Assembly: GCA_019119335.1 (NCBI GenBank)
Contig: DWXF01000021.1
Coordinates: 1-64,000, forward strand
Reading direction: 5' to 3'
Source of the DNA: Candidatus Flavonifractor merdavium
GTDB lineage: Bacteria; Bacillota; Clostridia; Oscillospirales; Oscillospiraceae
DNA length: 64,000 nucleotides
The notes beneath the pieces are model-generated. The model saw nothing but the letters and a program-made list of their open reading frames with translations, searched no databases and had not been told where the DNA came from. Shown piece by piece: positions 8,695 to 58,402 of this stretch; position 1 is the stretch's first letter, and each line of letters begins with the position of its first letter. Made by a program: the position numbers and the translations under genes.

Positions 8695-10014
8695 GTCAAG
8701 TGCGATCTGCGGCCGACCTGAGCCGCATCAAGGAGCGTTATCTGGCCCAGCAGAGCAAGTGCGCCTGGCAGGTGCTGGTGTGCGGCGGCGCGGGCTGCGT
8801 GTCCTCCCACTGTCAGCAGGTGCGCCAGGCCCTGGACCAGGCCCTGGCTGACCACGGTCTCACCGATTCCGTCAGCGTGCTGGTCACCGGCTGCATGGGT
8901 ACCTGCGCCGCCGGTCCGGTGATGCTGGTGGAGCCCGACGGCATTTTCTACACCTCCATGGATCCGGAAAAGGTACGGGAGGTGGTGGAGCGCCACCTGA
9001 TCGGCGGAAAAGTGGTGGAGGAATACACCTTCTGGGACAGCTATCAGAAAAAGCGTATACCCAAGCTGGATGATATCAGCTTCTTCAAGGAGCAGGTCCG
9101 CATCGCCCTGCGCAACTGCGGCCGGATGGAGTACTCCTCTCTGGACGCCTACATCGCCCGGGACGGCTACGGCGCCGCCGCCAAGGCCCTGCTGGCCATG
9201 ACCCCGGAGCAGGTGGTGGCGGAGATGAAGGCCTCCGGCCTGCGGGGCCGGGGCGGCGCGGGCTTCCCCACCGGCGTGAAGTGGGAGGCCGGCATGAAGG
9301 CCCCCAAGGGTCAGAAGTACATCGTGTGCAACGCCGACGAAGGCGACCCCGGCGCGTTCATGGACCGCTCGGTGTTGGAGGGGGATCCCCACTCCATCAT
9401 CGAAGGCATGCTGCTGGGGGGCTACGCCATCGGGGCCGACAAGGGTTACGTCTACGTCCGGGCGGAGTATCCCCTGGCGGTGGAGCGGCTGGGGGCGGCC
9501 ATCGACCAGGCGCGGGCCGCCGGGCTGCTGGGCACCGATATTCTGGGTTCCGGGGTGGATTTCGACCTGGAGATCCGCATCGGCGCGGGCGCCTTCGTCT
9601 GCGGCGAAGAGACCGCCCTGCTGGCCTCCATCGAAGGCATGCGGGGCGAGCCCCGGCAGAAGCCCCCCTTCCCCTTTGAAGCGGGTCTGTTTGAAAAGCC
9701 CACTATTATCAACAACGTGGAGACCCTGGCCAACGTGGCCCCCATTATCCTTAACGGCGCTGCCTGGTACGCCGGCTTCGGCACCGAAAAGAGCAAGGGT
9801 ACCAAGGTGTTCGCCCTGGCCGGGGCCATCGTCAACGCCGGTATCATCGAGGTACCCATGGGCACCGTGCTGGGGGACATCATCTATAAAATCGGTGGCG
9901 GCATCGTGGACGGCAAGGGCTTCAAGGCCATCCAGTCCGGCGGACCCTCCGGCGGCTGTCTTACCAAGGAGCACCTGAACGTGACGGTGGACTACGAATC
10001 CCTGTCCGGCCTGC
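8691..10014 (+). pseudogene. HndC/NuoF-type FMN/NADH subunit, 3' part missing
   Basis: GTG start overlapping the NuoE-type stop. Residues ~10-105 form a second [2Fe-2S] thioredoxin-like domain (CGGAGCVSSHC, TGCMGTC), followed by the NADH/FMN domain (GLRGRGGAGFPTG, NADEGDPGAFMDR, GAFVCGEETAL), the HndC/HydB layout. Normal sequence runs to DYESLSGL (~10014) and then stops matching the family: the SLBB end and the C-terminal [4Fe-4S] cysteines are absent. The frame continues to 10322, but this tail is antisense to a MATE gene. About 170 or more residues and any downstream catalytic subunit are lost. It is either a real deletion or an assembly join. Confidence 0.8.
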
Positions 10015-10283
10015 TGCCGCTTTCCGGCGCCGATGGCGTTGCCCACAAACACCGTGACCCCCATGGTCAGGCCGGTGAGCACCATCGTAAGCAGATTCAG
10101 CAGCTGGCTGCCGGAGGCCACGCCGGACTGCTCGCTGATCCCGGCAAACCGCCCCACAATGATCAGGTCCGCCGCCCCATACATGGCCTGCAGAAACAGG
10201 GCCAGCAGAACAGGCAGCGCAAAGCCGAGCAGGGAAGGAAGGATCTTCCCCCGAACCAGACTGTTTGTGTTTGTTCGACTCAT
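10014..10283 (-). pseudogene. MATE-family multidrug efflux protein, N-terminal fragment
   Basis: ATG at 10283 with AAAGGGAG upstream. The first ~90 residues are typical MATE: LVRGKILPSLLGFALPVLLA, then the QAMYGAADLIIVGRFAG loop and VFVGNAIGAGK. Full MATE exporters have ~450 residues and 12 helices; this copy keeps only about the first two helices before running into the antisense strand of the HndC-like gene at ~10014. Upstream it retains a consensus promoter, a three-codon leader ORF and an attenuator-like hairpin. The protein cannot be functional as it stands. Confidence 0.8.
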
Positions 10284-10306
10284 GCCAACACTCCCTTTCA
10301 TGCAAG

Positions 10307-10356
10307 AAAAAAAGCCGGATAAGAGAACGGGAATTTCACCCGTCATCTTATCCGGC
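10307..10356 (-). terminator. Attenuator/terminator hairpin in the MATE leader
   Basis: On the minus strand GCCGGATAAGA pairs with TCTTATCCGGC, with an inner GACGGG/CCCGTT-type extension, followed by seven Ts. It lies between the promoter and the MATE start codon, so it must be read through for expression. Confidence 0.8.
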
Positions 10357-10368
10357 TCACAGCTCCAT
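10357..10368 (-). promoter_or_regulatory. Three-codon leader ORF (Met-Glu-Leu-stop)
   Basis: ATG GAG CTG TGA, preceded by GGAGGG with a 10-nt spacing, ends directly before the attenuator stem. Tiny leader ORFs placed like this sense ribosome stalling by antibiotics in several Firmicutes resistance genes; that role here is inferred. Confidence 0.45.
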
Positions 10369-10396
10369 GGCTGCTTACCCTCCGATGAACAACTGG

Positions 10397-10425
10397 ATTG
10401 TAGCAAAAGTCTGTCCAATTGTCAA
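10397..10425 (-). promoter_or_regulatory. Consensus sigma-70 promoter of the MATE leader
   Basis: TTGACA, 17-bp spacer, TACAAT on the minus strand, the best sigma-70 match I noticed in the window. The leader ORF begins about 25 bases downstream of the -10 box. Confidence 0.8.
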
Positions 10426-10814
10426 TGGATTCCGGCCCTTACAGATCCATTGCCGGGTAATAGCCGTCAAACACCATGAATGGGCCTCACCGTCCAAGGA
10501 TCACCTGTGTTATAACGCAGATGGTTTGTATAGGTTTCGCGTGTTTTTATCTCTTTTCACCCATTTTGATTGTCCCTCTTGTGCAACGAGGCAGCTTATG
10601 GCATACTAAAGGAGATTTCATCGGCCGGAGGTGTCCCCTCCCCGCTCTGTTTTCCGGCTTTGGCCGCGATCGGAACGTCTGTCCCTGATGCGCCTTGGGA
10701 AAGGCGAGCCCATTTGAGCTTCTGGAGGACCTGGTATCCGCCCCGCCCCCGGCGGGCCCCTAGCAGTCCGCAAAAAGTCCTGTGGCCGGCACAATAAGAC
10801 AAGGAGGCGCTGCC
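10426..10814. other. 389-base gap, no gene recognised
   Basis: Lies between the MATE promoter and the HAD gene. Reading frames here have no family features or ribosome binding sites. A weak + strand promoter (TTGTGC, 17 bp, CATACT) ending near 10606 could serve the HAD gene. Confidence 0.4.
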
Positions 10815-11621
10815 ATGTACAAACTGGTGGTTAGCGATATTGACGGCACCCTGCTGCCCTATGGCCAGGAGCGGCTGGATCCAGCTGTGTTTGACGTGCT
10901 CCGCAGGCTGCGGGCCAGAGGCGTACTGTTCTGCCCCGCCTCTGGCCGTCAGTTTCACTCCCTGCGCCGGCTGTTTCAGCCGGTGGAGGACGACGTGCTC
11001 TGGATGTGCGAAAACGGGGCCATTTTATACGGAAACGGACCGGAGGACCAGGCCCCCATTCTCCACCGCACCCCCATTCCCCGGGCAGACGCCCTGGCGC
11101 TCTGCCGGGAGATCATCGCCCTGCCGGGCTGTCAGGTGCTGATCTCCGGGGCCAATGTCAGCTATCTGTACGACTGCACGCCGGAGTACGCGGAGTACAT
11201 GCAGACGGCAAAGGGAAACCGGACGGTGATCTGCCAACGCCCGGAGGACATCCAGGAGGAGATCCTGAAGGTATCCGCCTACTGTCCCCAGGGGACTCTG
11301 CCCTACGAGCAGGAGCTGCGCCCCAGGTGGGCGGACAGGCTGACCGTGGCGGTGGCGGGACCGGACTGGCTGGACTTCACGGCGGCCAACAAGGGAATCG
11401 GTCTGGCCGCCCTGTGCCGCATTCTGGGCATTCCGCCGGAGGAGACCCTGGCCTTCGGCGACAATTGGAACGACGCGGAAATGCTGGACCAGGCCGGCCT
11501 GGCCTTCCTCATGCGCGGATCGGACCCCGCCCTTCTGGCCAGATATCCCAATCACTGCGCCAGTGTGACCGCCGTTCTGGAAGCCAATATGGAGACCTGG
11601 TTCCCCCCAAACAGCCCGTGA
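10815..11621 (+). CDS. Cof-type HAD-superfamily phosphatase
   Basis: 268 aa; the ATG at 10815 follows AAGGAGG. HAD motif I is DIDGTLL with both catalytic aspartates near the N-terminus, and motif IV is FGDNWNDAEML. The large C2-type cap between residues ~85 and 190 places it in the Cof/YidA subfamily, which dephosphorylates sugar phosphates, PLP or nucleotides in the cytosol. It stands alone between two terminator-like elements, so its substrate cannot be read from context. Confidence 0.88.
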   Translation: MYKLVVSDIDGTLLPYGQERLDPAVFDVLRRLRARGVLFCPASGRQFHSLRRLFQPVEDDVLWMCENGAILYGNGPEDQAPILHRTPIPRADALALCREIIALPGCQVLISGANVSYLYDCTPEYAEYMQTAKGNRTVICQRPEDIQEEILKVSAYCPQGTLPYEQELRPRWADRLTVAVAGPDWLDFTAANKGIGLAALCRILGIPPEETLAFGDNWNDAEMLDQAGLAFLMRGSDPALLARYPNHCASVTAVLEANMETWFPPNSP

Positions 11622-11633
11622 CGAAATGAAAAA

Positions 11634-11669
11634 GGAGCGCTCCAGCACAAGCTGGAGCGCTCCTTTTTT
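11634..11669. terminator. Bidirectional terminator between the HAD and MFS genes
   Basis: A 13-bp stem GGAGCGCTCCAGC/GCTGGAGCGCTCC with an ACAA loop, AAAAA before it and TTTTTT after it, serves both convergent genes. Confidence 0.9.
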
Positions 11670-11675
11670 CTAAAT

Positions 11676-12812
11676 TTACACCCGCTTTTGAGCCGCGAAC
11701 CGGGCGCAGGCGGGCAGCACGGCCAGGGCAAAGAGGGCCGCCATGGTATACATCAGATGATAACCCATTTCCGAGGCAGTCCACCCGCACACCATGGCGC
11801 CCAGACCGTAGCCCAGGTCCTGGAACAGGAAGAGCGTGCTGCTCCCCGCCCCTCGCTTTTCCCGGGGCAGGGTGCGGATGGCGGCATAGTTGAGGGTGGG
11901 ATTGGCCACGCCGGAGCAGGCGCCGTAAGCGGCGGCCAGCAGAAGGTAGACGGCCTGGGAATCCGCCCACCCGGCCAGCAGGGCGGCCCCAGCAAAGGGA
12001 ATGCAGACGCAGCACATGGTTCTGGGCAGTCCCCAGCGCTCACCGAGCCGGGCGGCGGAGCTGTTGGCCACCACCATCACCGCCGAGCCCAGCAGAAAGA
12101 ACAGGCCCCCCAGCGTATAACCCCTGGCATCGGCCAGTGCCAGGGCAAAGTTGTTTACCGAGGAGAGGGCCATAGAGACGAGAAACAGCAGAATACCCGC
12201 GGGCAGGGCGGCGGGCTCGATAATCCGCAGGGGGGCGGACTGGCGGTTCCTGGGCGGCCTTTTTTGCTCGTAGCGGCAGAACAGGGAGAGCACCGCCCCC
12301 ACAGTCAGGATTCCGGCGGTGACCACAAACAGGAGGGTAAAGCTGCCTCCGGCGGTGAGGGCCAGGCCAATATAGGCGGAAACCGCACCGGCCAGGGCCA
12401 GACTGATCCAGAACAGCCCCAGACTCCGGTTGGCGGCGTCGGGCGGGGCCACGTCCACGCTGGCGGCTGAAGCGGCGGTGTTGATCAGGGAAAATCCAGC
12501 CCCGTGGAGCCCCCGGAGGAGGAACAGCGCCGGCAGAGCCCCCGTGGCGCCGAACAGCAGCGTACTGACGGCAAAGAGCACACATCCCAGGAAGAGGACC
12601 AGCCGCCTGCTGCGCCGGTCGGCCAGCGCGCCGGCCGCCAGCCGGCCGGCCACGGCAAAGCCGGCATAGGACAGAGAGAGCAGTCCGGCGGTGCCCGCCC
12701 CCACGTAGAGGGCGATGGTATTGAGCAGGATATTCTGCCCCAGCGCGCCGCACAGCGAGATCAGCCAGATCAGCAGGAACCAGGCGGAGAGGTTCCGGAG
12801 GTTTGTTTTCAT
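11676..12812 (-). CDS. Major facilitator superfamily transporter
   Basis: 378 aa from the ATG at 12812; a TTG two codons earlier is possible because GGGAG sits upstream of both. Twelve hydrophobic segments are visible. The cytoplasmic loop between helices 2 and 3 has the MFS pattern (GALADRRSRR). No substrate signature is recognised; small drug or sugar-type exporters share this length. It is a single gene read toward the HAD gene, and is separated by a strong hairpin from the polyol operon behind it. Confidence 0.8.
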   Translation of the reverse strand: MKTNLRNLSAWFLLIWLISLCGALGQNILLNTIALYVGAGTAGLLSLSYAGFAVAGRLAAGALADRRSRRLVLFLGCVLFAVSTLLFGATGALPALFLLRGLHGAGFSLINTAASAASVDVAPPDAANRSLGLFWISLALAGAVSAYIGLALTAGGSFTLLFVVTAGILTVGAVLSLFCRYEQKRPPRNRQSAPLRIIEPAALPAGILLFLVSMALSSVNNFALALADARGYTLGGLFFLLGSAVMVVANSSAARLGERWGLPRTMCCVCIPFAGAALLAGWADSQAVYLLLAAAYGACSGVANPTLNYAAIRTLPREKRGAGSSTLFLFQDLGYGLGAMVCGWTASEMGYHLMYTMAALFALAVLPACARFAAQKRV

Positions 12813-12840
12813 AGACAATCACACTCCCTCGTATACAGAG

Positions 12841-12874
12841 GACCTCCGCCGCCGGTGGTCCGGCGGCGGAGGTC
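12841..12874 (-). terminator. Terminator-like hairpin after the Fe-ADH operon
   Basis: A perfect 15-bp GC stem (GACCTCCGCCGCCGG and complement) with a 4-nt loop; no T-run. It also sits at the 5' edge of the MFS gene. Confidence 0.55.
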
Positions 12875-12902
12875 CCTGGGCTGCGGGTGGATGGGGGCGG
12901 AC

Positions 12903-14048
12903 TTAAAACGCCTTTTTCAGGATGTCCATGATGTCCTCCTGAGAGGGCTTTCTGGGATTGAACATGACGGCGCCCTCGTGGACGGCGTCGGCGGCCAGGG
13001 CGGGCAGATCGGCCTCGGTGATGTTGTAATCCCTGATGGTCTTGATGCCCACCCGGCGGACCAGGTCCAGCACGGCCTGGCAGGTCTTGCGGGCTCCCGC
13101 CTCGGCGGTCTCGTAGCTGGAGCAGCAGCCCATGGCCATGCCCAGCTCCTTGTACTTCTCGGGGAACTGCTGGGCGTTATACTCCATGACATAGGGCAGC
13201 ACCAGGGCGTTGGCCACACCGTGGGGCAGGCCGTGCCGGGCGCTGAGGGTGTGGGCGATGCCGTGGACCAGGCCCAGGTCGGCGTTGTTGAAGGCAAAGC
13301 CCACGATGACGCAGCCCCGCATCATCTCCTCCCGGGCGTCCACATCGGCGCCGTTCTCCACCGCCAGGGGCAGGCTGTGGAAGAAGATCCGGGCGGCCTC
13401 CAGGGAGCTGTACCGGGTCAGGTCGGAGGCATTGACCGAGACATAGGACTCGATGGCGTGGGTCAGAGCGTCAATGCCGGTGGCGGCGGTGATACCGGCG
13501 GGCAGGCCGGTGGTCAGCATGGGATCGATGACGGCATGGCTGGCCCCCACATGGTTGCCCACAATCACGTACTTGCGGACCTCTTCCTCATTGATGAGGG
13601 CGATGACGTTGGTGATCTCGCTGGAGGTGCCGGCGGTGGTGGGGATGGCCACCAGGGGCAGACCCTGCTTTTTCACCTGGTTGGGGCCCTCATAGCGCTG
13701 GATGGGCCCCTCGTTGTTCAGCAGAATGTTGATGGCCTTGGCGGTGTCGATGGGGCTGCCGCCGCCCACGGCCACAATGCCGTCCACGCCGGCCTTGGCG
13801 GCCATCTCATAGCCGGCCTGCACCACGCCGTTGGTGGGGTTGGGGATAACCGCGTCAAACACCACGGTCTCAATATTGGCCTGGGCCAGAGGAGCCAGCA
13901 CCTTGTCGGCAATGCCGCAGCTCACAATGCCCTTGTCACACACAACCAGGACCTTTTTCAGGCCGATTTCCGTTACGATTTCGCCCAGCTCGGCAACGCT
14001 GTTCCGGCCGAAATAGACCTTGCTGGGGACATGATAAATGGCGCTCAT
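12903..14048 (-). CDS. Iron-containing alcohol dehydrogenase (FucO-like)
   Basis: 381 aa, ATG at 14048 with AAAGGAG and a 4-base overlap with the kinase stop. The NAD site is GGGSPIDTAKA. The metal ligands are the D and H of GIDALTHAIE and the two histidines of GLVHGIAHTLSARHGLPHG. The sequence aligns well with lactaldehyde reductase/1,2-propanediol dehydrogenases. The family interconverts alcohols and aldehydes with NAD(H) in the cytosol. As the last gene of a four-gene operon (ene-reductase, Zn-ADH, kinase, Fe-ADH), it probably handles an aldehyde formed during breakdown of the imported compound. Confidence 0.88.
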   Translation of the reverse strand: MSAIYHVPSKVYFGRNSVAELGEIVTEIGLKKVLVVCDKGIVSCGIADKVLAPLAQANIETVVFDAVIPNPTNGVVQAGYEMAAKAGVDGIVAVGGGSPIDTAKAINILLNNEGPIQRYEGPNQVKKQGLPLVAIPTTAGTSSEITNVIALINEEEVRKYVIVGNHVGASHAVIDPMLTTGLPAGITAATGIDALTHAIESYVSVNASDLTRYSSLEAARIFFHSLPLAVENGADVDAREEMMRGCVIVGFAFNNADLGLVHGIAHTLSARHGLPHGVANALVLPYVMEYNAQQFPEKYKELGMAMGCCSSYETAEAGARKTCQAVLDLVRRVGIKTIRDYNITEADLPALAADAVHEGAVMFNPRKPSQEDIMDILKKAF

Positions 14049-29476: not shown

Positions 29477-29746
29477 TCAGGCGCGGGCGGCGGCAAAGCA
29501 CTGGTCGGTGGCGGCCAGCACCATGTCATCCCAGGTGGAAAAGCGGGTGCTCTCTTTGACAAAATTGTTGAACACCACATCGTCGTAGACCAACTGGTCG
29601 GCATTCCAGTTCACAAATACGGCGCTGGAATAGCGGAATCCCTCAAAGGACTGGAACCGGGAGTTGGCCTGCATGAAGGTATCGGTAAAGATCCTGTTCA
29701 GCAGGTCCTTCATCTCCTGGGGATAGTCCACATACTGAAACGCCAT
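29477..29746 (-). CDS. 89-aa hypothetical protein coupled to DUF362
   Basis: 89 aa; the ATG lies 2 bases after the DUF362 stop, so it is translationally coupled, and GAGCAGG upstream can serve as ribosome binding site. It is soluble and rich in Phe, Asp and Asn (QSFEGFRYSSAVFVNWN) with one cysteine near the C-terminus. I do not recognise a family. Its fixed place between the Fe-S protein and the cyclase suggests a small subunit or chaperone of one of them. Confidence 0.65.
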   Translation of the reverse strand: MAFQYVDYPQEMKDLLNRIFTDTFMQANSRFQSFEGFRYSSAVFVNWNADQLVYDDVVFNNFVKESTRFSTWDDMVLAATDQCFAAARA

Positions 29747-29748
29747 AC

Positions 29749-31032
29749 TTACGCCTGCTCTCCGTAGAATTTTTTGGCCTGCTCCTCCACGTACTTGCGC
29801 CACACCGGCTGGTCGGCCGCCATACGGGGACGGATGTACTCGCTCATCTGGCCGTCCTTGCCGTGGACCAGCTCGCCGTTGGAGATGGACATGTACAGCA
29901 GAGGCTCGGAGGGGGGGCAGCCCTCGATGTGGATGGCGTCGGGGTGGTCCTTCAGGTACTTGCGGGTGCAGTTGCCGTGGAGCACCAGCTTCTTGTCGTC
30001 CACATCGCCGGGGATGGTATTCTTGCCGCCGGCCACGACCACGAAGTCAGAGCGGCGCTCATAGTCGCCGATGGCCTTCAGGGTCTCCATGTTGATGGCC
30101 AGCAGCGCCTGGCAGCTGGAGCAGGCGCCGTCGCACAGCACCTTGTACTCGGGCCAGCGGGTGCTCATGTCGCCTATATAGGGCACCCACATCTTCTTGT
30201 AGCACTCCTGGACGGAAGCGCCCACCACGTCGATTTTCTCCCGCTCGGTGATGCCCAGGCCGGTCTCGGCGGCCACCCGGAAGTAATCCACCGCCTCGGC
30301 GTCGATGCCCACCAGGTCGCAGGCGATCAGATCCACGGCCACGGGGTCGGTGGAACCCAGGATGCAGCCCACGTCGATGGGCACGGGGGTGTGGGGAGAG
30401 TAGCCGCTGGCGGGACGGATGGCGTCCACGATGTTGATGTCGGCCCGGGAGACGCTCCAAACGTCCATCATGGCCATGGTCAGGTTCTGCTGGTGCATCT
30501 GCAGGTGTACAGCATCCTGCACTACGCCCTTGATGTTCTTCAGGGCGCAGGAGAACACCATGCTGGCGTGGGCCTTCAGAATGGGCAGGTTGATGAGGTG
30601 GTCGGCCTCCATCAGGCGGCGGGGCAGCTTCACGTGGTGCAGGTTGGAGCGGTAGCCCCGGACGGCCACGTTGATGAGGTCCTTGTCGGCCTTGATGTCG
30701 TAGAGCTCCACGCCCTCCTCCCGGGCCACGTCGGCAATGCCGGACACCTCATAGCACTCCATGGTGTCGCAGCCGATGGCGGCGGCCTCGGCGATGACGA
30801 TGCTCTTGGGATTGGCCTTCTTGACCTCGCGGATCACGGCGCGCACCACCTCGGGGTTGGTGCACACGGAGGTATCGGCAGGGGCGGCATGGCCGGCGTT
30901 GGGCTTCAGGAATACGGTGGTGCCGGCCTTGATCATGTTGGTGACGCCGCCCATCAGGTCAAAAACCTTGGTGACGCTCTCCTGGATGCTGGCCTCCTTG
31001 GCCAGGGCCACCAGCGCTTTCTTGTCGGACAT
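29749..31032 (-). CDS. DUF362-family iron-sulfur protein
   Basis: 427 aa, ATG at 31032 after GAAGGGAG. The N-terminal two-thirds is DUF362 (FLKPNAGHAAP, NLPILKAHASMVFSCALKN, IVDAIRPASG, GSTDPVAVDLIACDLVGID). The C-terminal part has cysteines in CSSC, GNC and GCPPSE contexts, suitable for one [4Fe-4S] cluster. DUF362 proteins are common in anaerobes, often beside redox or degradation enzymes; their reaction is generally not established. It is the first gene of a sigma-54-driven operon, with an 89-aa coupled protein and a cyclase-family hydrolase. It could be a reductase or activator for the substrate of that operon. Confidence 0.82.
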   Translation of the reverse strand: MSDKKALVALAKEASIQESVTKVFDLMGGVTNMIKAGTTVFLKPNAGHAAPADTSVCTNPEVVRAVIREVKKANPKSIVIAEAAAIGCDTMECYEVSGIADVAREEGVELYDIKADKDLINVAVRGYRSNLHHVKLPRRLMEADHLINLPILKAHASMVFSCALKNIKGVVQDAVHLQMHQQNLTMAMMDVWSVSRADINIVDAIRPASGYSPHTPVPIDVGCILGSTDPVAVDLIACDLVGIDAEAVDYFRVAAETGLGITEREKIDVVGASVQECYKKMWVPYIGDMSTRWPEYKVLCDGACSSCQALLAINMETLKAIGDYERRSDFVVVAGGKNTIPGDVDDKKLVLHGNCTRKYLKDHPDAIHIEGCPPSEPLLYMSISNGELVHGKDGQMSEYIRPRMAADQPVWRKYVEEQAKKFYGEQA

Positions 31033-31085
31033 ACTGGATTCTCCCTTCATGTAAGACTAAATGGAAGGTTTACGCCTGAAAGTTA

Positions 31086-31101
31086 AGCAAAACGGATGCC
31101 A
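31086..31101 (-). promoter_or_regulatory. Sigma-54 promoter of the DUF362 operon
   Basis: TGGCATCCGTTTTGCT on the minus strand: GG at -24 and GC at -12 with exact spacing, matching TGGCAYR-N4-TTGCW at all but the seventh base. It lies about 55 bases upstream of the DUF362 start. Confidence 0.85.
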
Positions 31102-31146
31102 AGTATTTTACGGGGTATTCCCCGCCGCTCCGGCGCAAACAGAGGG

Positions 31147-31187
31147 TTTTGTTGCATTTGCAGCACAAAACGGCGGTTTCTGTTGCA
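31147..31187. promoter_or_regulatory. Activator-binding region (TGTTGC/GCAACA elements)
   Basis: Dyad TGTTGC-ATTT-GCAGCA at 31150-31165 with AT-rich flanks (TTTT/AAAA), and a further TGTTGCA at 31181. Its centre is about 70 bp upstream of the -12 GC of the DUF362 promoter, a normal place for sigma-54 activator sites. Confidence 0.6.
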
Positions 31188-31207
31188 GGGCGGGAACAGA
31201 GCCCCGC

Positions 31208-32113
31208 TCAGAGCAGCTTGTGGAGCTTGAGCAGCTGGGCAAAGGCCCGGTCTCGGAACTTGCACACGCCCTCCACCGTGTTGCCCATGGAGGGGTCCCG
31301 GTTGGCGATCTCCTCATCCACGCCCTGGGCGTACACCTCGTTCCAGGGGGTGGGCTCCTCGCCGTACTTCTCAGCAATGGCCCGGAAGCCGCCGTCCACA
31401 CCCAGACTGATGGTGAGCAGCTGGCCGGTGACCGCCATGCGCATGCCGGGACCGAACATGATGGCCTTGTCCATGTCCTCCACGGAGCACACGCCGTCCC
31501 GCACGCACTCCTTGGCGGCGTCCAGGGCGGCCCAGGACAGCCGGTTAACGATAAAGCCGTAGATCTCCTTCTTGCAGACCACCGCCACCTTGCCCATGCC
31601 GGTGTAGATCTCCTTGGCCTTTTCAATGGCCTCGGGGGCGGTCTGCTCGCCGCCGCACAGCTCGATCAGGGGCAGCAGATAGGAGGGATTGTAGGGGTGG
31701 CCCACCAGGATGGACTGGGGATAGAGGGCCCCCTCCTGCAGCTTGGTGGGAAAAAGCTTGGAGGTGGAGCTGCAGATGATGGCGTCGGGGCCGGTGACCT
31801 TCTGGATGGTGGCGTAGGTGGACTTCTTCAGCTCCAGCCGCTCGGGAATGCACTCCTGCACAAATTGGGCGCCCTGCACCGCCTGCTCCAGGTCGTTGGA
31901 ATACCGGCAGGCGGCCAGCGCCTCGTCGGCCTGCTGCCTGGTGGCGGCCCCCGCCTCCACCAGGATGTCCATGATGTGGCGGATATTGCCCTCCATCTTC
32001 TCCTGGGGCACCACATCGTAGAGAACGGTCTCATAGCCGTTCAGCATGGCGTTGGCGGCCAGGCCGGCGCCGATCATGCCGGTCCCCACAAAAACAGCTT
32101 TTATCTTACCCAT
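31208..32113 (-). CDS. 3-hydroxyacyl-CoA dehydrogenase-fold enzyme (carnitine dehydrogenase-like)
   Basis: 301 aa, short for the family. NAD motif VGTGMIGAGLAANA; catalytic histidine in GHPYNPSYLLPLIEL. That HPYNP-LIPLVE signature is typical of members acting on free 3-hydroxy acids (L-carnitine, L-gulonate) and not on CoA esters. In carnitine and phloroglucinol catabolism the product, a beta-keto acid, is handed to a beta-keto acid cleavage enzyme; one is encoded at 38079 under the same type of promoter. (S)-3-hydroxy-5-oxohexanoate or a similar acid is a plausible substrate. Transcribed alone from its own sigma-54 promoter. Confidence 0.82.
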   Translation of the reverse strand: MGKIKAVFVGTGMIGAGLAANAMLNGYETVLYDVVPQEKMEGNIRHIMDILVEAGAATRQQADEALAACRYSNDLEQAVQGAQFVQECIPERLELKKSTYATIQKVTGPDAIICSSTSKLFPTKLQEGALYPQSILVGHPYNPSYLLPLIELCGGEQTAPEAIEKAKEIYTGMGKVAVVCKKEIYGFIVNRLSWAALDAAKECVRDGVCSVEDMDKAIMFGPGMRMAVTGQLLTISLGVDGGFRAIAEKYGEEPTPWNEVYAQGVDEEIANRDPSMGNTVEGVCKFRDRAFAQLLKLHKLL

Positions 32114-32179
32114 GTTCTCAGCCTCATTTCATTATGATCTGGGGTGTCATAGCGACATCGTCCTTCGTCATCTGGTATG

Positions 32180-32195
32180 AGCAAGTTTCATGCCA
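32180..32195 (-). promoter_or_regulatory. Sigma-54 promoter of the 3-hydroxyacid dehydrogenase
   Basis: TGGCATGAAACTTGCT on the minus strand, a perfect TGGCAYR-N4-TTGCW match, about 67 bases upstream of the ATG. Confidence 0.88.
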
Positions 32196-32248
32196 TACAT
32201 TTTCCGGCCCTCCGGCGGGTAAAACCGGGGAAACCGCCTCCTGACATT

Positions 32249-32263
32249 GCAAAACCGCAACAC
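32249..32263. promoter_or_regulatory. Activator-binding motif TGCAAAACCGCAACA
   Basis: Differs at one base from the site at 37899. Its centre lies ~75 bp upstream of the -12 GC of the dehydrogenase promoter. Confidence 0.65.
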
Positions 32264-32347
32264 ACCCTTCCGGCTGGAGAATGCGCAGTTGCAGTTTGGA
32301 AACAGGACGTGTATCCCCTTCTCTGGCCCGCGAGTTGACAAAGCAGG

Positions 32348-32353
32348 TATAAT
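32348..32353 (+). promoter_or_regulatory. Possible -10 box of the sigma-54 activator gene
   Basis: TATAAT 37 bases upstream of the ATG; no good -35 box at the proper distance (a TTGACA lies too close). Confidence 0.35.
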
Positions 32354-32389
32354 AGAAAGAGATCCTGTACGTAAAAGGAGAGAAACACC

Positions 32390-33958
32390 ATGGATCAATA
32401 TTTGGCCATTCGGGAGGTCCGCGCGCTGCTGAAGGACGCGATGGACCAGGTCCGCCAGCCGGAGCTGCTGACCCAGCTCCAGGAAATTGACAGCCGGCTG
32501 GAGGCGTTTCACAACAAAGGGATCGACTTCAAAGAAGTGGTGGACTGCCTGGACGACAGCGTCCTCATCACAGACGCCGCCGGCGTGGTGCTCTACATCA
32601 ACCCCGCCTACACCCGCAACACCGGCATCACCGGCCAGGACGTGCTGGACCGGGATATCCACACTCTGATCGGAGAGGACAAGCTGTTTACCGGCGGCGC
32701 TGTGACCAGCGTGCTGGAAAGCGGCAAAAGCGCCTTCCGTCTGTCCACCACCTACAAGACCGGGGAGCCCCTGGTGGGCTACGTGATGGGCACCCCCATC
32801 CTCAATGCCGACGGCAGCCTGCGGCAGGTGGTGGCCTGCAGCCGCCCCATTGTGTCTCTGAACTATCTGCAAGAGGATTTTGAGGCCTTTGTCAAGGAAG
32901 TAGCCTCTCTCCGGTCCAAGTACATCTCCAAGGACTCCGACCAGCACCTCTCCGACAGCATGGTGGGGAAATACGGCTCTTTGCAGTCCATCAATACCCT
33001 GATCCACCACATCGCCCCCACCGACGCCTCGGTGCTCATCACCGGCGAGTCCGGCGTGGGCAAGGAGGTGGTGGCGGATGAGATCTACCGGCGCAGCCAG
33101 CGGCAGAACAAGCCCTATGTGAAGATCAACTGCGCCTCCATCCCCGGCCACCTGCTGGAGTCGGAGCTGTTCGGCTACGAAAAGGGGGCCTTTACCGGAG
33201 CCAATGCCAAGGGAAAAATCGGTCTGTTTGAGTACGCCAACCACGGCACCCTGCTGCTGGACGAAATCGGGGACATGCCCATCGACCTGCAGGTGAAGCT
33301 GCTGCGGGCCATCCAGTCCCAGCAGATCACCCGCATTGGCGGCACCACTCCCATTCAGCTGGACATCCGGTTCCTGGCCCTCACCAACTCCGATCTGAAG
33401 AAAAAGGTCTCGGAGGGCACCTTCCGTCAGGACCTGTACTACCGGCTCAACGTAATCCCCATCTCCGTGCCGCCCCTGCGGCAGCGGCTGGAGGATTTTG
33501 AGGCCCTGTGCGACCACTTTATCCAGCGCTTCACCAAGAAGTACGACCGGGCCTTCACCCTGACCCAGTGGCAGCTGGACTATATGAAGCGCTATTCCTG
33601 GCCGGGAAATATCCGGGAGCTGGAAAACGTGATGGAATACCTCATCCTGTGCAGCTCAGGCATCGGCCGCATTGAGGACGACGTGCTCCGGGGCCTGCTC
33701 AACGTGCCGGAGGAGCCCGTCGCGGAGGCTGTCCAGCCGGAAAGCCCCCCGCCCGCGCCGGAGCCGGAGCCGGAGGCGCCGCCGGAAACCCAGGACTTCA
33801 GCACGGCGGTGGCCCAATTTGAAAAACAGCTGCTGGAGCAGGTGCTGAAGGACTCGGCCAATCTCCGGGACGCCAGCCGGAAGCTGAACATCAATGCCTC
33901 CACCATCTGCCGGAAAATCAAGCAGTACGGCATTGACTACGAAAATCGCAGAAGCTGA
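32390..33958 (+). CDS. Sigma-54-dependent activator with PAS sensor
   Basis: 522 aa, ATG after AAAAGGAG. A short N-terminal helix is followed by a PAS domain (~55-165; LDDSVLITDAAG, NPAYTRNTG), an AAA+ core with Walker A GESGVGKE, the sigma-54-contacting loop GAFTGA, Walker B LLLDEIGD and WPGNIRELEN, then a Pro/Glu-rich linker and a C-terminal Fis-type helix-turn-helix (LRDASRKLNINASTICRKI). The PAS domain probably senses a small molecule. It is divergent from the 3-hydroxyacid dehydrogenase and surrounded by four sigma-54 promoters carrying a shared upstream motif, so it is the likely activator of the whole 28.6-38.9 kb set. Confidence 0.92.
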   Translation: MDQYLAIREVRALLKDAMDQVRQPELLTQLQEIDSRLEAFHNKGIDFKEVVDCLDDSVLITDAAGVVLYINPAYTRNTGITGQDVLDRDIHTLIGEDKLFTGGAVTSVLESGKSAFRLSTTYKTGEPLVGYVMGTPILNADGSLRQVVACSRPIVSLNYLQEDFEAFVKEVASLRSKYISKDSDQHLSDSMVGKYGSLQSINTLIHHIAPTDASVLITGESGVGKEVVADEIYRRSQRQNKPYVKINCASIPGHLLESELFGYEKGAFTGANAKGKIGLFEYANHGTLLLDEIGDMPIDLQVKLLRAIQSQQITRIGGTTPIQLDIRFLALTNSDLKKKVSEGTFRQDLYYRLNVIPISVPPLRQRLEDFEALCDHFIQRFTKKYDRAFTLTQWQLDYMKRYSWPGNIRELENVMEYLILCSSGIGRIEDDVLRGLLNVPEEPVAEAVQPESPPPAPEPEPEAPPETQDFSTAVAQFEKQLLEQVLKDSANLRDASRKLNINASTICRKIKQYGIDYENRRS

Positions 33959-33970
33959 CAAGATGTTAAA

Positions 33971-34016
33971 AACGCGGCAAGGGCCGCCGGACATGTCCGG
34001 CGGCCCTTGCCGCGTT
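33971..34016. terminator. 46-bp perfect palindrome, bidirectional terminator
   Basis: Each 23-bp half starts AACGCGGCAAGGGCC and is exactly complementary to the other, between the stops of convergent genes. AAA precedes it, but there is no long T-run. Confidence 0.7.
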
Positions 34017-34060
34017 CAGGGATGGGAACAAAGGGAACAAAATGGAGGAAAACAGAGAGA

Positions 34061-35359
34061 TTACTTCAGCAGCTTCTGCTCTGCGGCAACATCTCTGTTA
34101 TACTTGGTGGGATTAATGATCTTGGTGAGCACCATGTTGACCACCAGCAGGCCGATGTAGAAGATGTAGGCCCCCCGCAGGCTGCCGGTGACCCGGATGG
34201 CAAAGGCATTGACCTGGTAGTTGGTCATCAGCACAATCTGCATCAGCGGGAAGAACACGGAATTAACCATGGTGAAGCCGTGGCGGCCGAACACGGAGGC
34301 GGGCAGGGACACGATAAAGTTGGCGGCGGCCCCCACGGCAATGCCGATCATGGCCACGGACACATATACGCCGATGGTGGTGTCGGTGCAGTTGACGGCC
34401 AGGGCCACGCAGTACCACACCAGGAAGAGCAGGATGGCTTTCTTGACGCCGAACTTCTGGTCGATGGCGCCGAAGAGGTAGGAGCCGCACACGCCGATGA
34501 TGGCGCACACGGTCATCAGGCCCACGGCGGCCTCCTGGGTGAAGCCCAGGCTGGTGTTGCGGACCACCAGCTGACTCATGACGCCGGTGGTAACCAGCTG
34601 GTTGATGCCGATGATGAGGGCGCACAGCCACAGTTCCCGGGTCATCAGCAGCTTGCCGGCTGTCCAGCCGCCGTTATCCTCGCTGCTGCCCTGAAAGTAC
34701 TCCCGCTCGTAGACCTCTTTGGACACGTTGTCGGGATACATGCCGCATTCCTGAGGGGTATTGCGGACAAAAATCAGGCCGATGACGCCCAGCACGATGG
34801 CTCCCACGGCCACGTAGCTCATGCCGTTGGCAAAGCCGAAGGCGCCGATGGAGAAGGAGATCAGGGGTACATAAAAGGCGGAGCCGCAGTTGTGGCCCAT
34901 GGTGGTAAATCCGTTGGCCAGGCCCTTTTTCTTGGGGAACCACTGGGCGATCAGGGTGTTGCCGGCGATGTAGGCGGCGCCGTTGATGAAGCAGGTCACC
35001 AGCGTCAGGGCGATAAAGTAGGTGGTCAGGGTGGTGCTGTGGCCCAGGAAGATGTAGGACAGGCCAGCTCCGATGAGACAGATGCCGCTCAGCAGCCGGG
35101 CGCCCACCTTCACGTTGATGCGGGCGATGAAGATATAGGCCACCACGCCGATCATGCCGGCCCAGGTGGCCACACCCAGCACCTGGTCATAGGCAATGCC
35201 GGTGGACTCGGCAAAGGCGGGGGCCACGATGTTCAGTCCGTCGATGGAAAAGCCGATCAGGAAGAAAAACATGAGGGCCTGGTAGAGAATAATGCCCCAC
35301 CCTTTGGAGAAATGCATGCTCATGTTTTCACTGGCAATTTGGGAATTCTTTTTGCTCAT
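34061..35359 (-). CDS. MFS transporter, oxalate/formate antiporter (OFA) type
   Basis: 432 aa, ATG after GAGAGGAG. Twelve hydrophobic segments; the RNTPQECGMYPDN loop after helix 6 is typical of OFA-family monocarboxylate transporters, as is FINGAAYIAGNTLIAQWFPKKKGLANG. OFA members move oxalate, formate, lactate or aromatic-type acids across the cytoplasmic membrane. It is the last gene of the thiolase/Fe-ADH operon, so it probably imports the substrate or exports an acid end product of the pathway. Confidence 0.85.
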   Translation of the reverse strand: MSKKNSQIASENMSMHFSKGWGIILYQALMFFFLIGFSIDGLNIVAPAFAESTGIAYDQVLGVATWAGMIGVVAYIFIARINVKVGARLLSGICLIGAGLSYIFLGHSTTLTTYFIALTLVTCFINGAAYIAGNTLIAQWFPKKKGLANGFTTMGHNCGSAFYVPLISFSIGAFGFANGMSYVAVGAIVLGVIGLIFVRNTPQECGMYPDNVSKEVYEREYFQGSSEDNGGWTAGKLLMTRELWLCALIIGINQLVTTGVMSQLVVRNTSLGFTQEAAVGLMTVCAIIGVCGSYLFGAIDQKFGVKKAILLFLVWYCVALAVNCTDTTIGVYVSVAMIGIAVGAAANFIVSLPASVFGRHGFTMVNSVFFPLMQIVLMTNYQVNAFAIRVTGSLRGAYIFYIGLLVVNMVLTKIINPTKYNRDVAAEQKLLK

Positions 35360-35415
35360 GGTTTACAGCTCCTCTCGTTGCAAAGGGGCAACAAAGGTTT
35401 GGGTGGAACCGCAGT

Positions 35416-36582
35416 CTAGCCCAGGGCCAGCTGCAGCAGCCGGAACACGGCGTCGTAATCCAGGGGGCGGAAGTTGCCGCCCAGGCTGCCGGTGCGGCCG
35501 GGCAGAGCCCGGAGGGCCAGCCGCTCCACCGACACGTCGCCGAAGCCGGCCTCCCGCAGGGTTACCGGCAGCCCCGTCAGGCACAGAAAGTCCTGAAAGG
35601 CCGAGATGCCGTTCTGGGCGGTCTGGATCTGGCTGAGGCAGGGAGGGACCTGCCAGACCAGGGTGGAAAATTCCGCGATGGCATCCGCCTCATCGGTCAG
35701 CATAAACTTGCACCACGCCGTCATCAGGATGCCCAGGGCCACGCCGTGGGGCAGCCCCAGCTCCCCGGTGAGCACATGGGAGAGGGCGTGGCAGGCGTAG
35801 TCCCCCTCGAAGCCCAGCATGTTGCTGTGGGCCACGGTGGCCGCCCACATCAGCTGGCTGCGGGCGTCGTAGTTATCGGGCTGGGCCAGCGCCCGGGGGA
35901 GCTCCTGGATGACGGTACACATCACCGCGGCGCACATCCGGCTGCGCAGCGTGCCCCGCTGCTCCTTGTGGAAGTAGCGCTCAAAGGCGTGGGAGAAAAT
36001 GTCCACCGCGCAGGAGGCGGTCTGCCGGGGGGGCAGAGAGTAGGTGAGCTCCGGATTCATCAGGGCAAACCGGGGACAGGTCAGCGGCTCGGTGAGGGCC
36101 GCTTTGGTCTGGAGGGTGTCGTGGCGGAGCACGGAGACGCAGTTGGCCTCGCTGGCGGTGGCGGCGGTGGTGAGCACCACGCCGATGGGCAGCGCCCCCT
36201 CCGCCTTGGCCTTGCCCTGATACAGGTCCCACAGAGGCCGGCTGCTCACCGCGCCCAGGCTGACAGCCTTGGCGGTGTCAATGACGCTGCCCCCTCCCAC
36301 CGCCAAAATCAGGGTGCAGTGGTTTTCCCTGGCCAGAGCGGCTCCCTCCTCCGCCTTGGACAGCAGGGGATTCTCCTGGATCCCGCCCAATTCAGTCACA
36401 TGGAGGCCGCGGGCCTTCAGCTCCGCCTCCAGCCGGTCCAGCAGCCCACTGCGGCGGACCCGCTGGCTGCCATAGAGCACCAGTGCGTTGGGGCCGTAGG
36501 GGGCGGCCAGCTCCCCCACCCGGCGCTCGGCTCCCCGGCCGAAGATCACCTGGGTGGGAAAGGAAAAGGTAAAATCCTTCAT
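35416..36582 (-). CDS. Iron-containing alcohol dehydrogenase
   Basis: 388 aa, ATG 15 bases after the thiolase stop, with a weak GGGAAAG site, so probably coupled. NAD motif GGGSVIDTAKA; metal ligands D and H of VDIFSHAFE and the histidines of CHALSHVLTGELGLPHG. It resembles clostridial butanol-type dehydrogenases more than FucO. Between a thiolase and a transporter, it may act on a ketone or alcohol intermediate, or reduce an end-product aldehyde to dispose of electrons. Confidence 0.87.
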   Translation of the reverse strand: MKDFTFSFPTQVIFGRGAERRVGELAAPYGPNALVLYGSQRVRRSGLLDRLEAELKARGLHVTELGGIQENPLLSKAEEGAALARENHCTLILAVGGGSVIDTAKAVSLGAVSSRPLWDLYQGKAKAEGALPIGVVLTTAATASEANCVSVLRHDTLQTKAALTEPLTCPRFALMNPELTYSLPPRQTASCAVDIFSHAFERYFHKEQRGTLRSRMCAAVMCTVIQELPRALAQPDNYDARSQLMWAATVAHSNMLGFEGDYACHALSHVLTGELGLPHGVALGILMTAWCKFMLTDEADAIAEFSTLVWQVPPCLSQIQTAQNGISAFQDFLCLTGLPVTLREAGFGDVSVERLALRALPGRTGSLGGNFRPLDYDAVFRLLQLALG

Positions 36583-36597
36583 AGCGGCTTTCCCGGC

Positions 36598-37776
36598 TCA
36601 GGCCATTTCGATAAGCACCGCCGTGCCCATACCGCCGCCGGCGCACAGGGTGGCCAGACCGTACCGGCCGCCCCGCCGCTTCAGCTCATGGAGCAGGCTG
36701 ACCACCAGCCGGCTGCCGGTGGCGCCCACCGGGTGACCCAGGGAAATGCCGCCGCCGTTGACGTTCAGCTTCTCCACATCAATGCCCAGCTCCCGCTGGC
36801 AGGCCACGCACTGGGCGGCAAAGGCCTCGTTGATCTCGAACAGGTCCACGTCGGCCACCGACAGTCCCGCCTTTTCCAGGGTCTTTTGGGTGGCGCTGAT
36901 GGGGCCAATGCCCATCAGATCGGGAGAGACGCCGGTGGTGGCGGTGGCCACCACCCGGGCCAGCACAGGCAGACCCAGTTTGCGGGCCATCTCCTCCTCC
37001 ATCAGCAGCACACCGGAGGCGGCGTCGTTCATGCCGGAGGAGTTGCCGGCGGTGACCCGGCCGTCCTTCTTAAAGGTGGGCTTCAGCTTGGCCAGCTTCT
37101 CATAGCTGGTGTCCCGGCGGATGTGCTCATCGGTGGTGATTACGGTGTCTCCCTTCTTGCCGGGTACCGTGACGGGGATGATCTCCTCGGCAAACTTGCC
37201 GCCGTCCGCTGCGGCGGCGGCCCGCTGCTGGGAGAGGAGGGCGTAGTTGTCCATATCCTCCCGGGTCACGTGGTAGGCCTCGGCCACGTTCTCGGCGGTA
37301 ATGCCCATGGCGGGGCCCACGCCCAGGTTGGTGAGGGAGTCCCACATGGAATCCCGCAGCTCCATATGGCCGAACTTCTTGCCGTAGCGGGCGTCAAACA
37401 CCATGAAGGGGGCTGCGCTCATACAGTCGGCGCCGCCGGCCATGATGCAGTTGGCCTCTCCGGCCATGATCTGGTAGAAGCCCATCTGGATGGAGGACAT
37501 GGAGGAGGTACAGTTGCGGTGGACGGTGATGCCGGGCACCGTCTCCGGCAGGCCGGCCTTGACAGCGGCCACCCGGGCCAGGTTGTTTTCCAGATAGGTA
37601 CGCTGATAGTTGCAGCCCCAGATCACGTCGTCAATACAGGCAGGGTCCACGCCGGAGCGCTGGACCAGGGCCTGCATGACGGGAATGGTCAGGTCCAGAG
37701 CGGTCAAGGTCTTGAACTGGCCGCCGATGGTCCCGATGGGGGTGCGGCAGGCGGCCACAATGGCAACATGTTTCAT
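36598..37776 (-). CDS. Thiolase (acetyl-CoA acetyltransferase family)
   Basis: 392 aa, ATG with GAGAGGAG about 10 nt upstream. The three active-site elements are present: nucleophile Cys in [12 protein letters not shown], His in [16 protein letters not shown], and Cys in [21 protein letters not shown] is conserved. The NCTSSM context differs from the VCGSG of housekeeping acetoacetyl-CoA thiolases, hinting at a specialised acyl chain. The reaction is CoA-dependent cleavage of a 3-ketoacyl-CoA to acetyl-CoA and a shortened acyl-CoA. First gene of a sigma-54-driven operon; acetoacetyl-CoA from the divergent beta-keto acid cleavage enzyme would be an obvious substrate. Confidence 0.9.
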
Positions 37777-37830
37777 GGTGGTGTAAGCTCCTCTCTGCGC
37801 ACGGCGGCGCTGCATGATGCCCGTTAATTC

Positions 37831-37846
37831 AGCAAGCGGTATGCCA
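37831..37846 (-). promoter_or_regulatory. Sigma-54 promoter of the thiolase operon
   Basis: TGGCATACCGCTTGCT on the minus strand, a perfect TGGCAYR-N4-TTGCW match, 55 bases upstream of the ATG. Confidence 0.88.
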
Positions 37847-37898
37847 ACTGCTTTTCCGGCAAACGGGGGCTTTTTTCCGCCGCTTTGGCCCATATCCA

Positions 37899-37955
37899 TG
37901 CAAAAACGCAACAGCAGCCGGCCAGGCGGACCGGTTGTGTTTCCATACCGCAACA
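37899..37955. promoter_or_regulatory. Pair of activator motifs between divergent sigma-54 promoters
   Basis: TGCAAAAACGCAACA at 37899-37913 is ~74 bp from the -12 element of the thiolase promoter; a weaker copy, TTCCATACCGCAACA at 37941-37955, is ~69 bp from that of the + strand promoter. Each would serve one direction. Confidence 0.6.
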
Positions 37956-38003
37956 AGGGTCCCAAAACAGCGCCGGAGGGCCTTCCAAACCGGGGAAAAA
38001 TAT

Positions 38004-38019
38004 TGGCATAGAACTTGCT
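38004..38019 (+). promoter_or_regulatory. Sigma-54 promoter of the beta-keto acid cleavage enzyme
   Basis: TGGCATAGAACTTGCT, a perfect TGGCAYR-N4-TTGCW match, about 60 bases upstream of the ATG. Confidence 0.9.
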
Positions 38020-38078
38020 CTTTCCTTTTTCAACAGGCCTTCTGACATTGGGGCCCGACATGAAGGAGGAACGGAACC

Positions 38079-38927
38079 ATGAATCAGGATAAAACCATCA
38101 TTACCATCGCCACCACCGGCGCATGGCCCAAGAAGGAAAACAACCCCAACGTACCCATGACCCCCGAGGAGATCGCCGAGGACATCTACGCCTGCTGGAA
38201 GGCGGGCGCGGCCGTGGCTCACATGCACATGCGGGACGACCAGGGCAACGGCACCATGGACAAGGCCAAATTCCGCAAGACGGTGGAGCTGCTGCGGACC
38301 AACCACCCCGACTGCGACGTCATTCTGAATATGACCACCTCCGGCGCGGCCTCCTTCCCCACCGAGGAGTGCCGGTACGAGCACATTGTGGAGCTCCGCC
38401 CCGAGATGGCCTCCTATGACTGCGGCTCCATGAACTGGATGCACTCCGGCCTGTTCCTCAATCCGCCCGCCTTTCTGGAGAAGCTGGGCGGGATCATGCA
38501 GGAGAACAACATCAAGCCGGAGATCGAGGCCTTTGACCCCGGCATGATTGCCAACGCCCAGTACTATCTGAAGAAGGGCGTGCTGAAGGCTCCCCTACAC
38601 TTCCAGTTCTGCATGGGCTGCGCCAACGGCATCCCCGGCACCATGAAGAACCTGATCTTCATGAAGGAGACCATGGAATCCCTGTGCCCCGGCTCCACCT
38701 GGAGCTGCTTCGGCGTGGGTCACTCCGCCCTGACCATGCTGTACGGCGCTGTGGCTCTGGGCGGCCACATCCGTGTGGGCATGGAGGACAACGTGATGTA
38801 CTCCAAGGGCGTGCTGGCCGAGAGCAACGTGCAGTTCGTGGAGCGGGCCCGTCGGGTCATCGAGGAGTTCGGCAAAAAGGTTGCTACTCCCGATGAGGCC
38901 CGTGAGATCCTGGGTCTGGCCCGGTAA
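38079..38927 (+). CDS. Beta-keto acid cleavage enzyme (BKACE; Kce/TAL type)
   Basis: 282 aa, ATG after GAAGGAGG. It is a TIM-barrel Zn enzyme with ligands H48 and H50 in AHMHMRD and the downstream RVGMEDN glutamate, both hallmarks of the family. BKACEs react a beta-keto acid with acetyl-CoA to give acetoacetate and a new CoA ester. Known members cleave 3-keto-5-aminohexanoate (lysine fermentation), 3-dehydrocarnitine and triacetate (phloroglucinol catabolism). No other lysine-fermentation gene is present. The carnitine-dehydrogenase-like enzyme, cyclase and thiolase under matching promoters favour a triacetate-like or similar substrate. Monocistronic, with its own terminator. Confidence 0.9.
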
Positions 38928-58386: not shown

Positions 58387-58402
58387 TGCAAAATATGTGC
58401 CA
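58387..58402 (-). promoter_or_regulatory. Sigma-54 promoter of the symporter
   Basis: TGGCACATATTTTGCA on the minus strand, a perfect TGGCAYR-N4-TTGCW match. The start codon is 156 bases downstream, an unusually long leader. The surrounding 358-base gap (58232-58589) otherwise contains only the activator's terminator; I see no clear activator dyad. Confidence 0.88.

Follow-up and report, generated by a model that had tools for sequence, protein, structure and literature searches.

One-component sigma-54 activators of the Clostridiales have been sorted into 39 groups, and 357 of 387 activators carry PAS domains (Nie et al., 2019; PMC6615313, cited throughout from the part of its text that was available). 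In that part, multiple sites are given for 32 groups, targets are mostly neighbours of the activator, and two to six operons each are controlled by 93 of 263 activators. The 64,000-nucleotide stretch analysed here, called the window, comprises positions 1 to 64,000 of contig DWXF01000021.1 of Candidatus Flavonifractor merdavium, and around positions 31,033 to 38,078 it holds a gene cluster in which a PAS-type activator gene is surrounded by four putative sigma-54 promoters. The locus follows the configuration of the described regulons in its PAS activator without a receiver domain, its Fis-type helix-turn-helix (HTH), its multiple TGT-N12-ACA dyads, its -24/-12 promoters, and its fermentation genes, which adjoin the activator gene as targets. 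It differs in the placement of the dyads, whose distance from the promoter is 55-144 bp here, counted start to start, and mostly 100-250 bp in the regulons described. From the sequence we propose that the cluster forms a sigma-54 regulon confined to itself and controlled by the adjacent PAS activator, with a probability of about 0.88. At the sequence level, this proposal is supported by the promoters, the dyads, their spacing and conservation, the presence of RpoN, and the domains of the activator.

Promoters and paired dyads around one activator gene

The pattern TGGCAYRNNNNTTGCW was found in a window scan without mismatch at three positions: on the reverse strand at 32180-32195 (TGGCATGAAACTTGCT), in front of a 3-hydroxyacid dehydrogenase gene, on the same strand at 37831-37846 (TGGCATACCGCTTGCT), in front of the genes for a thiolase, an iron-containing alcohol dehydrogenase (Fe-ADH) and an MFS transporter, and on the forward strand at 38004-38019 (TGGCATAGAACTTGCT), in front of the gene for a beta-keto acid cleavage enzyme (BKACE). 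With one mismatch it occurs on the reverse strand at 31086-31101 (TGGCATCCGTTTTGCT), ahead of the genes for a DUF362 protein, an 89-aa protein (p89) and a cyclase-family hydrolase. All four were thus found where the first-pass annotation had placed them, three perfect and the first with a single mismatch, and the GG and GC of sigma-54 promoter cores are present. The assembly (2,758,476 bases scanned, 82% complete) contains eight perfect matches, against two with the reversed control. Three of the eight fall inside this 7-kb stretch, where about 0.02 would be expected at the genome rate (P ~1e-6).

The element shared upstream of the promoters is an 18-bp dyad, TGTTGC-N6-GCAACA, a unit defined by comparing relatives; each promoter has two of them, usually paired 42-44 bp apart, and distances are measured start to start between dyad and -24 element. 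The dehydrogenase promoter has a proximal dyad 67 bp upstream (32245-32262, CATTGCAAAACCGCAACA) and a distal one 109 bp upstream (32287-32304, AGTTGCAGTTTGGAAACA), 42 bp from its partner. In the gap between the thiolase and BKACE genes, the same two dyads stand before both divergent promoters: the first (37896-37913, CCATGCAAAAACGCAACA) lies 67 bp from the thiolase promoter and 108 bp from the BKACE promoter, the second (37938-37955, TGTTTCCATACCGCAACA) 66 bp from the BKACE promoter and 109 bp from the thiolase promoter, the proximal dyad of either promoter being the distal dyad of its opposite. A search of this gap for inverted repeats returned none at the thresholds used. The DUF362 promoter has a dyad 97 bp upstream (31181-31198, TGTTGCAGGGCGGGAACA) and a weak site at 66 bp (31150-31167, TGTGCTGCAAATGCAACA on the reverse strand), which ranks 14th among the window dyads. 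An orphan dyad lies ahead of the MFS gene (35376-35393, CGTTGCAAAGGGGCAACA).

Several of these sites had been seen earlier. The nearly identical motifs reported at 32249 and 37899 are both present (TGCAAAACCGCAACA and TGCAAAAACGCAACA), and the distance of 67-75 bp given from the motif centres to the -12 GC comes to 70-72 bp when calculated from the coordinates. The copy at 37941, however, had been called weaker, and it belongs to the best window dyad by the matrix trained on relatives, whereas the one at 37896-37913 comes only 9th. At 31150 the TGTTGC-ATTT-GCAGCA sequence exists as described but makes a weak half-site, with the better dyad alongside at 31181. This last dyad, the distal dyad at 32287 and the orphan at 35376 are additions to the earlier description.

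An exact composite of one half-site and, at the fitting distance behind it, a -24/-12 element, designed after the sites had been seen, gave four matches in the assembly, which are the four named promoters, and none with the reversed control. To this extent the earlier description of the regulon as self-contained is borne out, no further composite site being present in the assembly at this stringency, within the limits set by its completeness and by the use of exact patterns. Matrices were also trained on relatives only, the promoter matrix from 45 promoters (40 distinct) and the dyad matrix from 62 distinct dyads; since the patterns used to find their training sites had been suggested by the window, the matrix test is not wholly independent. 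Across the window, the five best promoter scores were the four named sites and 58387 on the reverse strand, near another activator, and the five best dyads all lay within the cluster. The joint scores of the four promoters (63.8, 57.1, 53.5 and 48.5) rank first to fourth in the window; the next was 18.8, and the best among 30 simulated first-order Markov windows was 21.1. Assembly-wide pattern and window-wide matrices lead to the same four promoters, and with the counts over orthologous loci given below they support the earlier judgement that four units matching both elements are improbable by chance. As a side observation, the perfect sites at 58387 (reverse strand) of the window and C49:64443 (forward strand) of the assembly lie near sigma-54 activator domains at 58992 and 62759.

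The activator gene (32390-33958, forward strand) encodes 522 aa with a PAS domain at residues 46-149, a sigma-54 AAA+ domain at 192-358 and a Fis-type HTH at 474-513 (PF00158 and PF02954 above cut-off), and the GAFTGA loop is visible in its translation. RpoN is present in the genome (PF04552 at C13:40327-40809, E 2.5e-57). Ahead of the activator gene, a TTGACA-N7-TATAAT sequence occurs at 32335-32353, with a similar sequence in the related loci L017, L018 and L116 (introduced below); its spacing does not suit an ordinary -35/-10 pair. A sigma-54 promoter of the activator's own was considered for the window genome and rejected: L017-L019 have an activator-facing box, and none is found here.

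Conservation in orthologous loci and a shared dyad pair

A BKACE search of genome contigs gave 255 loci, of which the best 80 were kept. Eleven loci were compared: the window (27-40 kb) and ten with an orthologous cluster, namely L017-L022 and L116, taken as belonging to the window's genus, L037 and L057 (Oscillospiraceae, Oscillibacter), and L082, from a Eubacterium metagenome-assembled genome. An activator orthologue with an identity of at least 79% is present in 8 of the 20 genomes of the genus, the own genome counted, and is rare outside it; at E 1e-140 or better, it was found in 4 of 394 genomes of the order, all of the same genus. Among the displayed orthologues the DNA-reading helix, NASTI[CS]RKIKQY, is conserved, except that L037 and L057 have V in place of I, and it differs in the paralogues on contigs C3 and C15; this comparison excludes L022, whose displayed open frame was the wrong one. 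The single PAS-type activator that the first-pass annotation saw amid the promoters proves to have the sigma-54 AAA+ and Fis-type HTH domains, and its helix is conserved together with the sites.

Promoters and dyads are kept in the intergenic regions of these relatives. Throughout the eleven loci, a dyad of at most two mismatches stands 50-150 bp upstream of all 32 perfect -24/-12 matches and of 17 of the 25 with one mismatch; among random positions the figure is 1633 of 44000 (3.7%). All matches were counted because a list of 49 promoters had been hand-picked. On that list, 49 of 49 have a dyad by the same limits, and 41 have two non-overlapping dyads (at most three mismatches). It leaves out the -24/-12-like matches at L018 3258; L019 3277, 3957 and 11814; L020 3984, 12924, 15311 and 15779; L021 7087; L116 2904, 6762, 6768 and 11902; L037 1624 and 15745; L017 10532; and L082 9916, 12607, 12710, 15496, 17079, 17655 and 20253. 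The last of these is a perfect -24/-12 site that faces away from the activator and has a dyad 106 bp upstream. The gap between thiolase and BKACE genes was aligned for nine of the eleven loci, without L116 and L082, which lack the divergent pair in the DNA examined; in it, relatives agree with the window at 82% of the 56 site positions versus 34% of the 199 others.

Spacing is conserved in a particular way. Distances between dyad and promoter in the loci cluster near 55, 66, 78, 98 and 109 bp, with a best period of 10.75 bp, and 5000 uniform draws never produced clustering as strong as in the 45 distinct unit-distance values, although homologous loci are not independent. Dyad-to-dyad distances measure 42-44 bp in 28 of 52 cases. 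Whole-turn changes of spacing are what a looping activator would be expected to tolerate. The dyad pair shared by the divergent promoters is present in all nine aligned loci; its two distances are equal within 2 bp in five (the window, L017, L018, L037 and L057) and differ by 9-11 bp, about one helical turn, in the other four (L019-L022). A pair common to two divergent promoters may offer a clean natural case for the study of enhancer sharing.

From these elements we infer the following mechanism. The PAS-AAA+-Fis activator would bind pairs of the 18-bp dyads and, once bound, would loop to the RpoN polymerase sitting at -24/-12 sites 66-109 bp off. The four promoters would be opened together when the N-terminal/PAS region senses a substrate or intermediate, and between the thiolase and BKACE genes one dyad pair would act on both divergent promoters.

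Observations against the regulon and alternative readings

A number of observations qualify the matches or weigh against a regulon confined to the cluster. With two mismatches allowed, 22 -24/-12 matches occur in the window versus a shuffle mean of 30.6, and because such matches do not exceed the shuffles, only near-perfect ones carry weight. Loose dyad matches number 84 versus a shuffle mean of 57, most of them uninformative, and the dyads at 37896 and 31150 are weak. The remaining 8 of the 25 one-mismatch promoter matches have no dyad, and the orthologous loci are not independent samples. Membership of the cluster also varies: several relatives have a separate promoter for the cyclase, and the dehydrogenase of L082 is a different one. 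The MFS gene has its own dyad or dyads and promoter in L018, L021, L022 and L116, in a gap of 212-245 bp that includes the ADH stop codon; by the same count the window gap is 59 bp, in which the dyad at 35376 is kept and the -24/-12 block is missing. The window MFS gene probably depends on the thiolase promoter. Finally, with an assembly 82% complete a distant target could be missing, and TGT/ACA dyads with spacers of 10-12 bp are reported for 15 activator groups, such that cross-talk is possible (PMC6615313, in part).

This last point leads to the alternative that survives best, in which the sigma-54 promoters are real but their dyads are bound by another activator of the genome, or by several jointly. 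The sigma-54 activator domain was matched 19 times in the assembly, with scores exceeding 200 bits in 11 cases; the dyad class is common to several activators (PMC6615313, in part), and a related variant, TGCTGC-N6-GCAGCA, lies near the activator on C15. Even so, we consider this reading unlikely. Four of the assembly's five other perfect -24/-12 sites lack, in the 300 bp upstream, any dyad of fewer than four mismatches. The fifth, on contig C34, was tried as a further target and rejected, since its dyads of two and three mismatches lie inside a terminator-like palindrome. The activator on C3 adjoins a different palindrome, GTGGTGAA...TTCACCAC, and all 11 loci have the activator gene of the cluster together with the dyads, a combination for which they had been selected.

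Less probable still, and in our opinion very much so, is a reading of the dyads as operators for some unrelated regulator, such as a repressor, whose sites happen to overlap a sigma-54 cluster. Dyads alone do not name their protein, and the orphan at 35376 is located just ahead of a start codon, a poor place for an activator site. Against this stand four features that fit enhancer sites: the pairing at 42-44 bp, the periodicity of about 10.75 bp relative to the promoter, the sharing of one pair by two divergent promoters and, in relatives, the presence of a promoter after the orphan site. Chance matches in GC-rich sequence, for which the excess of shuffles at two mismatches and the commonness of loose dyads could be invoked, are practically negligible in view of the perfect and composite matches, the matrices trained on relatives, the conservation footprint and the count over all matches in the loci.

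Cluster genes, predicted pathway and known systems

The regulon under the adjacent activator would include the following genes. On the reverse strand, the first unit encodes the DUF362 protein (29749-31032), p89 (29477-29746), which has no Pfam or NCBIfam match and is conserved beside DUF362, and the cyclase-family hydrolase (PF04199; 28608-29426), a paralogue of dihydrophloroglucinol-cyclohydrolase-type proteins. Also on this strand are the 3-hydroxyacid dehydrogenase (31208-32113), of the 3HCDH family and similar to carnitine dehydrogenase and lambda-crystallin, and the unit of thiolase (36598-37776), Fe-ADH (35416-36582) and MFS transporter (34061-35359). The forward strand carries the BKACE (38079-38927), of the triacetate acetoacetate-lyase (TAL) type with Trp16. 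Predicted structures of p89 and the DUF362 protein were of low confidence (mean pLDDT, the predicted local distance difference test, 67.5 and 49.0), too poor for a fold search, and the DUF362 protein had no match among PDB sequences. The cyclase is 99.6% identical in protein and 93-94% in DNA to the copies of L017 and L020, the latter having two, a pattern suggestive of strong purifying selection. A gene for a DAPG hydrolase family protein (PF18089; 27673-28533, forward strand) converges on the cyclase end of the cluster, and the window scans found no dyad and no same-strand -24/-12 match within 1 kb before it. An apparent remnant of a ferredoxin-nitroreductase gene was observed at L116 2738-3580, whose full-length form precedes the activator in L018, L019 and L021.

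The predicted chemistry centres on the BKACE. Its Trp16 aligns with the Glu of 2y7d, a lysine-pathway enzyme, and a Glu to Trp change is reported for the triacetate acetoacetate-lyase CsTAL (PMC10470551, in the part available). Trp is also found at this position in the best BKACE of 79 of the best 80 loci, L057 having His. The gene set published for phloroglucinol (SDR, 3HCDH, cyclase, BKACE and MFS) is present in locus L026, and the window BKACE is 85% identical to its counterpart there. The window dehydrogenase resembles carnitine dehydrogenases, but carnitine catabolism was rejected on account of this Trp16-type BKACE and its identity to that of the phloroglucinol-type cluster. Lysine fermentation was likewise rejected: no other such gene was found among the nine cluster proteins scanned, the KCE model gave 302 of 382 bits, and Trp replaces the KCE Glu. 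The window cyclase is 36-42% identical to that of L026 and keeps the H-x3-TH-x-D-x-P-x-H pattern. Of its WPY motif, Trp20 is kept and Ser replaces Tyr22, residues located with the WPY motif in L026 and L128 as the guide, not CsDPGC itself; in dihydrophloroglucinol cyclohydrolase (DPGC), Trp20 and Tyr22 are said to replace the substrate-recognition residues of isatin hydrolase (PMC10470551, in part).

The genome also carries homologues of phloroglucinol reductase (PGR) and DPGC on C6, and of TAL and TfD on C3, and therefore the window cluster would be an additional branch. On C3, the stretch 8973-13988 of locus L120 holds a second activator together with a TAL-type BKACE, a TfD-type dehydrogenase and a short-chain fatty acid transporter, and a perfect -24/-12 site is located there at 10624. 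Behind the BKACE gene, L017-L022 encode a further protein and a NifU domain; the copy of that protein in L018 matches the 4-hydroxybutyryl-CoA dehydratase 1u8v (E 1e-246). The window genome has a 4-hydroxybutyryl-CoA dehydratase homologue on C15, a contig where two TGCTGC/TGTTTC...GCAGCA dyads also occur near another activator (C15:13095-13214). A TRAP transporter follows the cyclase in L017 and L020, which hints at an acidic substrate.

The genes probably make up a catabolic route paralogous to phloroglucinol breakdown, for a substrate that is probably related to phloroglucinol but different. In such a route, uptake by the MFS transporter would be followed by hydrolytic ring opening by the cyclase and oxidation of a 3-hydroxy acid by the dehydrogenase; the beta-keto acid would then be cleaved with acetyl-CoA by the BKACE, thiolysis would follow, and the Fe-ADH would balance redox. 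Tentatively, and at less than even odds, we suggest that a ring compound resembling phloroglucinol, and probably acidic, is cleaved anaerobically by a pathway not yet described, ending in acetoacetate or acetoacetyl-CoA and, in relatives with the dehydratase, also in 4-hydroxybutyryl-CoA, with one PAS activator switching all of it and one enhancer pair driving two divergent promoters equidistantly. From the sequence, the genes of one inducible catabolic pathway are predicted, those for the DUF362 and 89-aa proteins among them. A promoter fusion would give a direct substrate screen, given that the substrate of the pathway, or one of its intermediates, is the expected signal for the activator.

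As far as PMC10470551 was available, the phloroglucinol cluster of Clostridium scatologenes and Flavonifractor plautii shares with the window a cyclase, a 3HCDH-type dehydrogenase, a Trp-type BKACE, an MFS transporter and a clustered regulator. The window cluster adds the thiolase, Fe-ADH, DUF362 and p89 genes, and its cyclase has Ser for the Tyr of WPY. The MFS transporter is 44% identical to that of L026. The window dehydrogenase belongs to the same superfamily as TfD-type proteins, at 27-28% identity, and the L082 cluster carries a 44% TfD relative. For a PGR-type reductase, no window protein matched the L026 SDR at E 1e-8 over half its length; a 67% homologue is on C6. On the regulatory side, PrdR (NCBIfam NF041552) is the best NCBIfam match of the activator at 363 bits, and the dyad class is shared with PrdR (PMC6615313, in part); the score, however, lies below the family cut-off of 795, and the target genes are others.

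A literature search, outside whose coverage most subscription journals lie, found no paper on the present regulon among those it listed, and a BKACE, cyclase or DUF362 target appears in no row of the 39 in Table 1 of PMC6615313. The targets overlap in part with those given there for XanR (abfD-nifU, a pair also found behind the BKACE in relatives) and XcaA (thl). The kind of regulon is thus already known among the one-component sigma-54 regulons of Clostridiales, and the present target set is new to that table.

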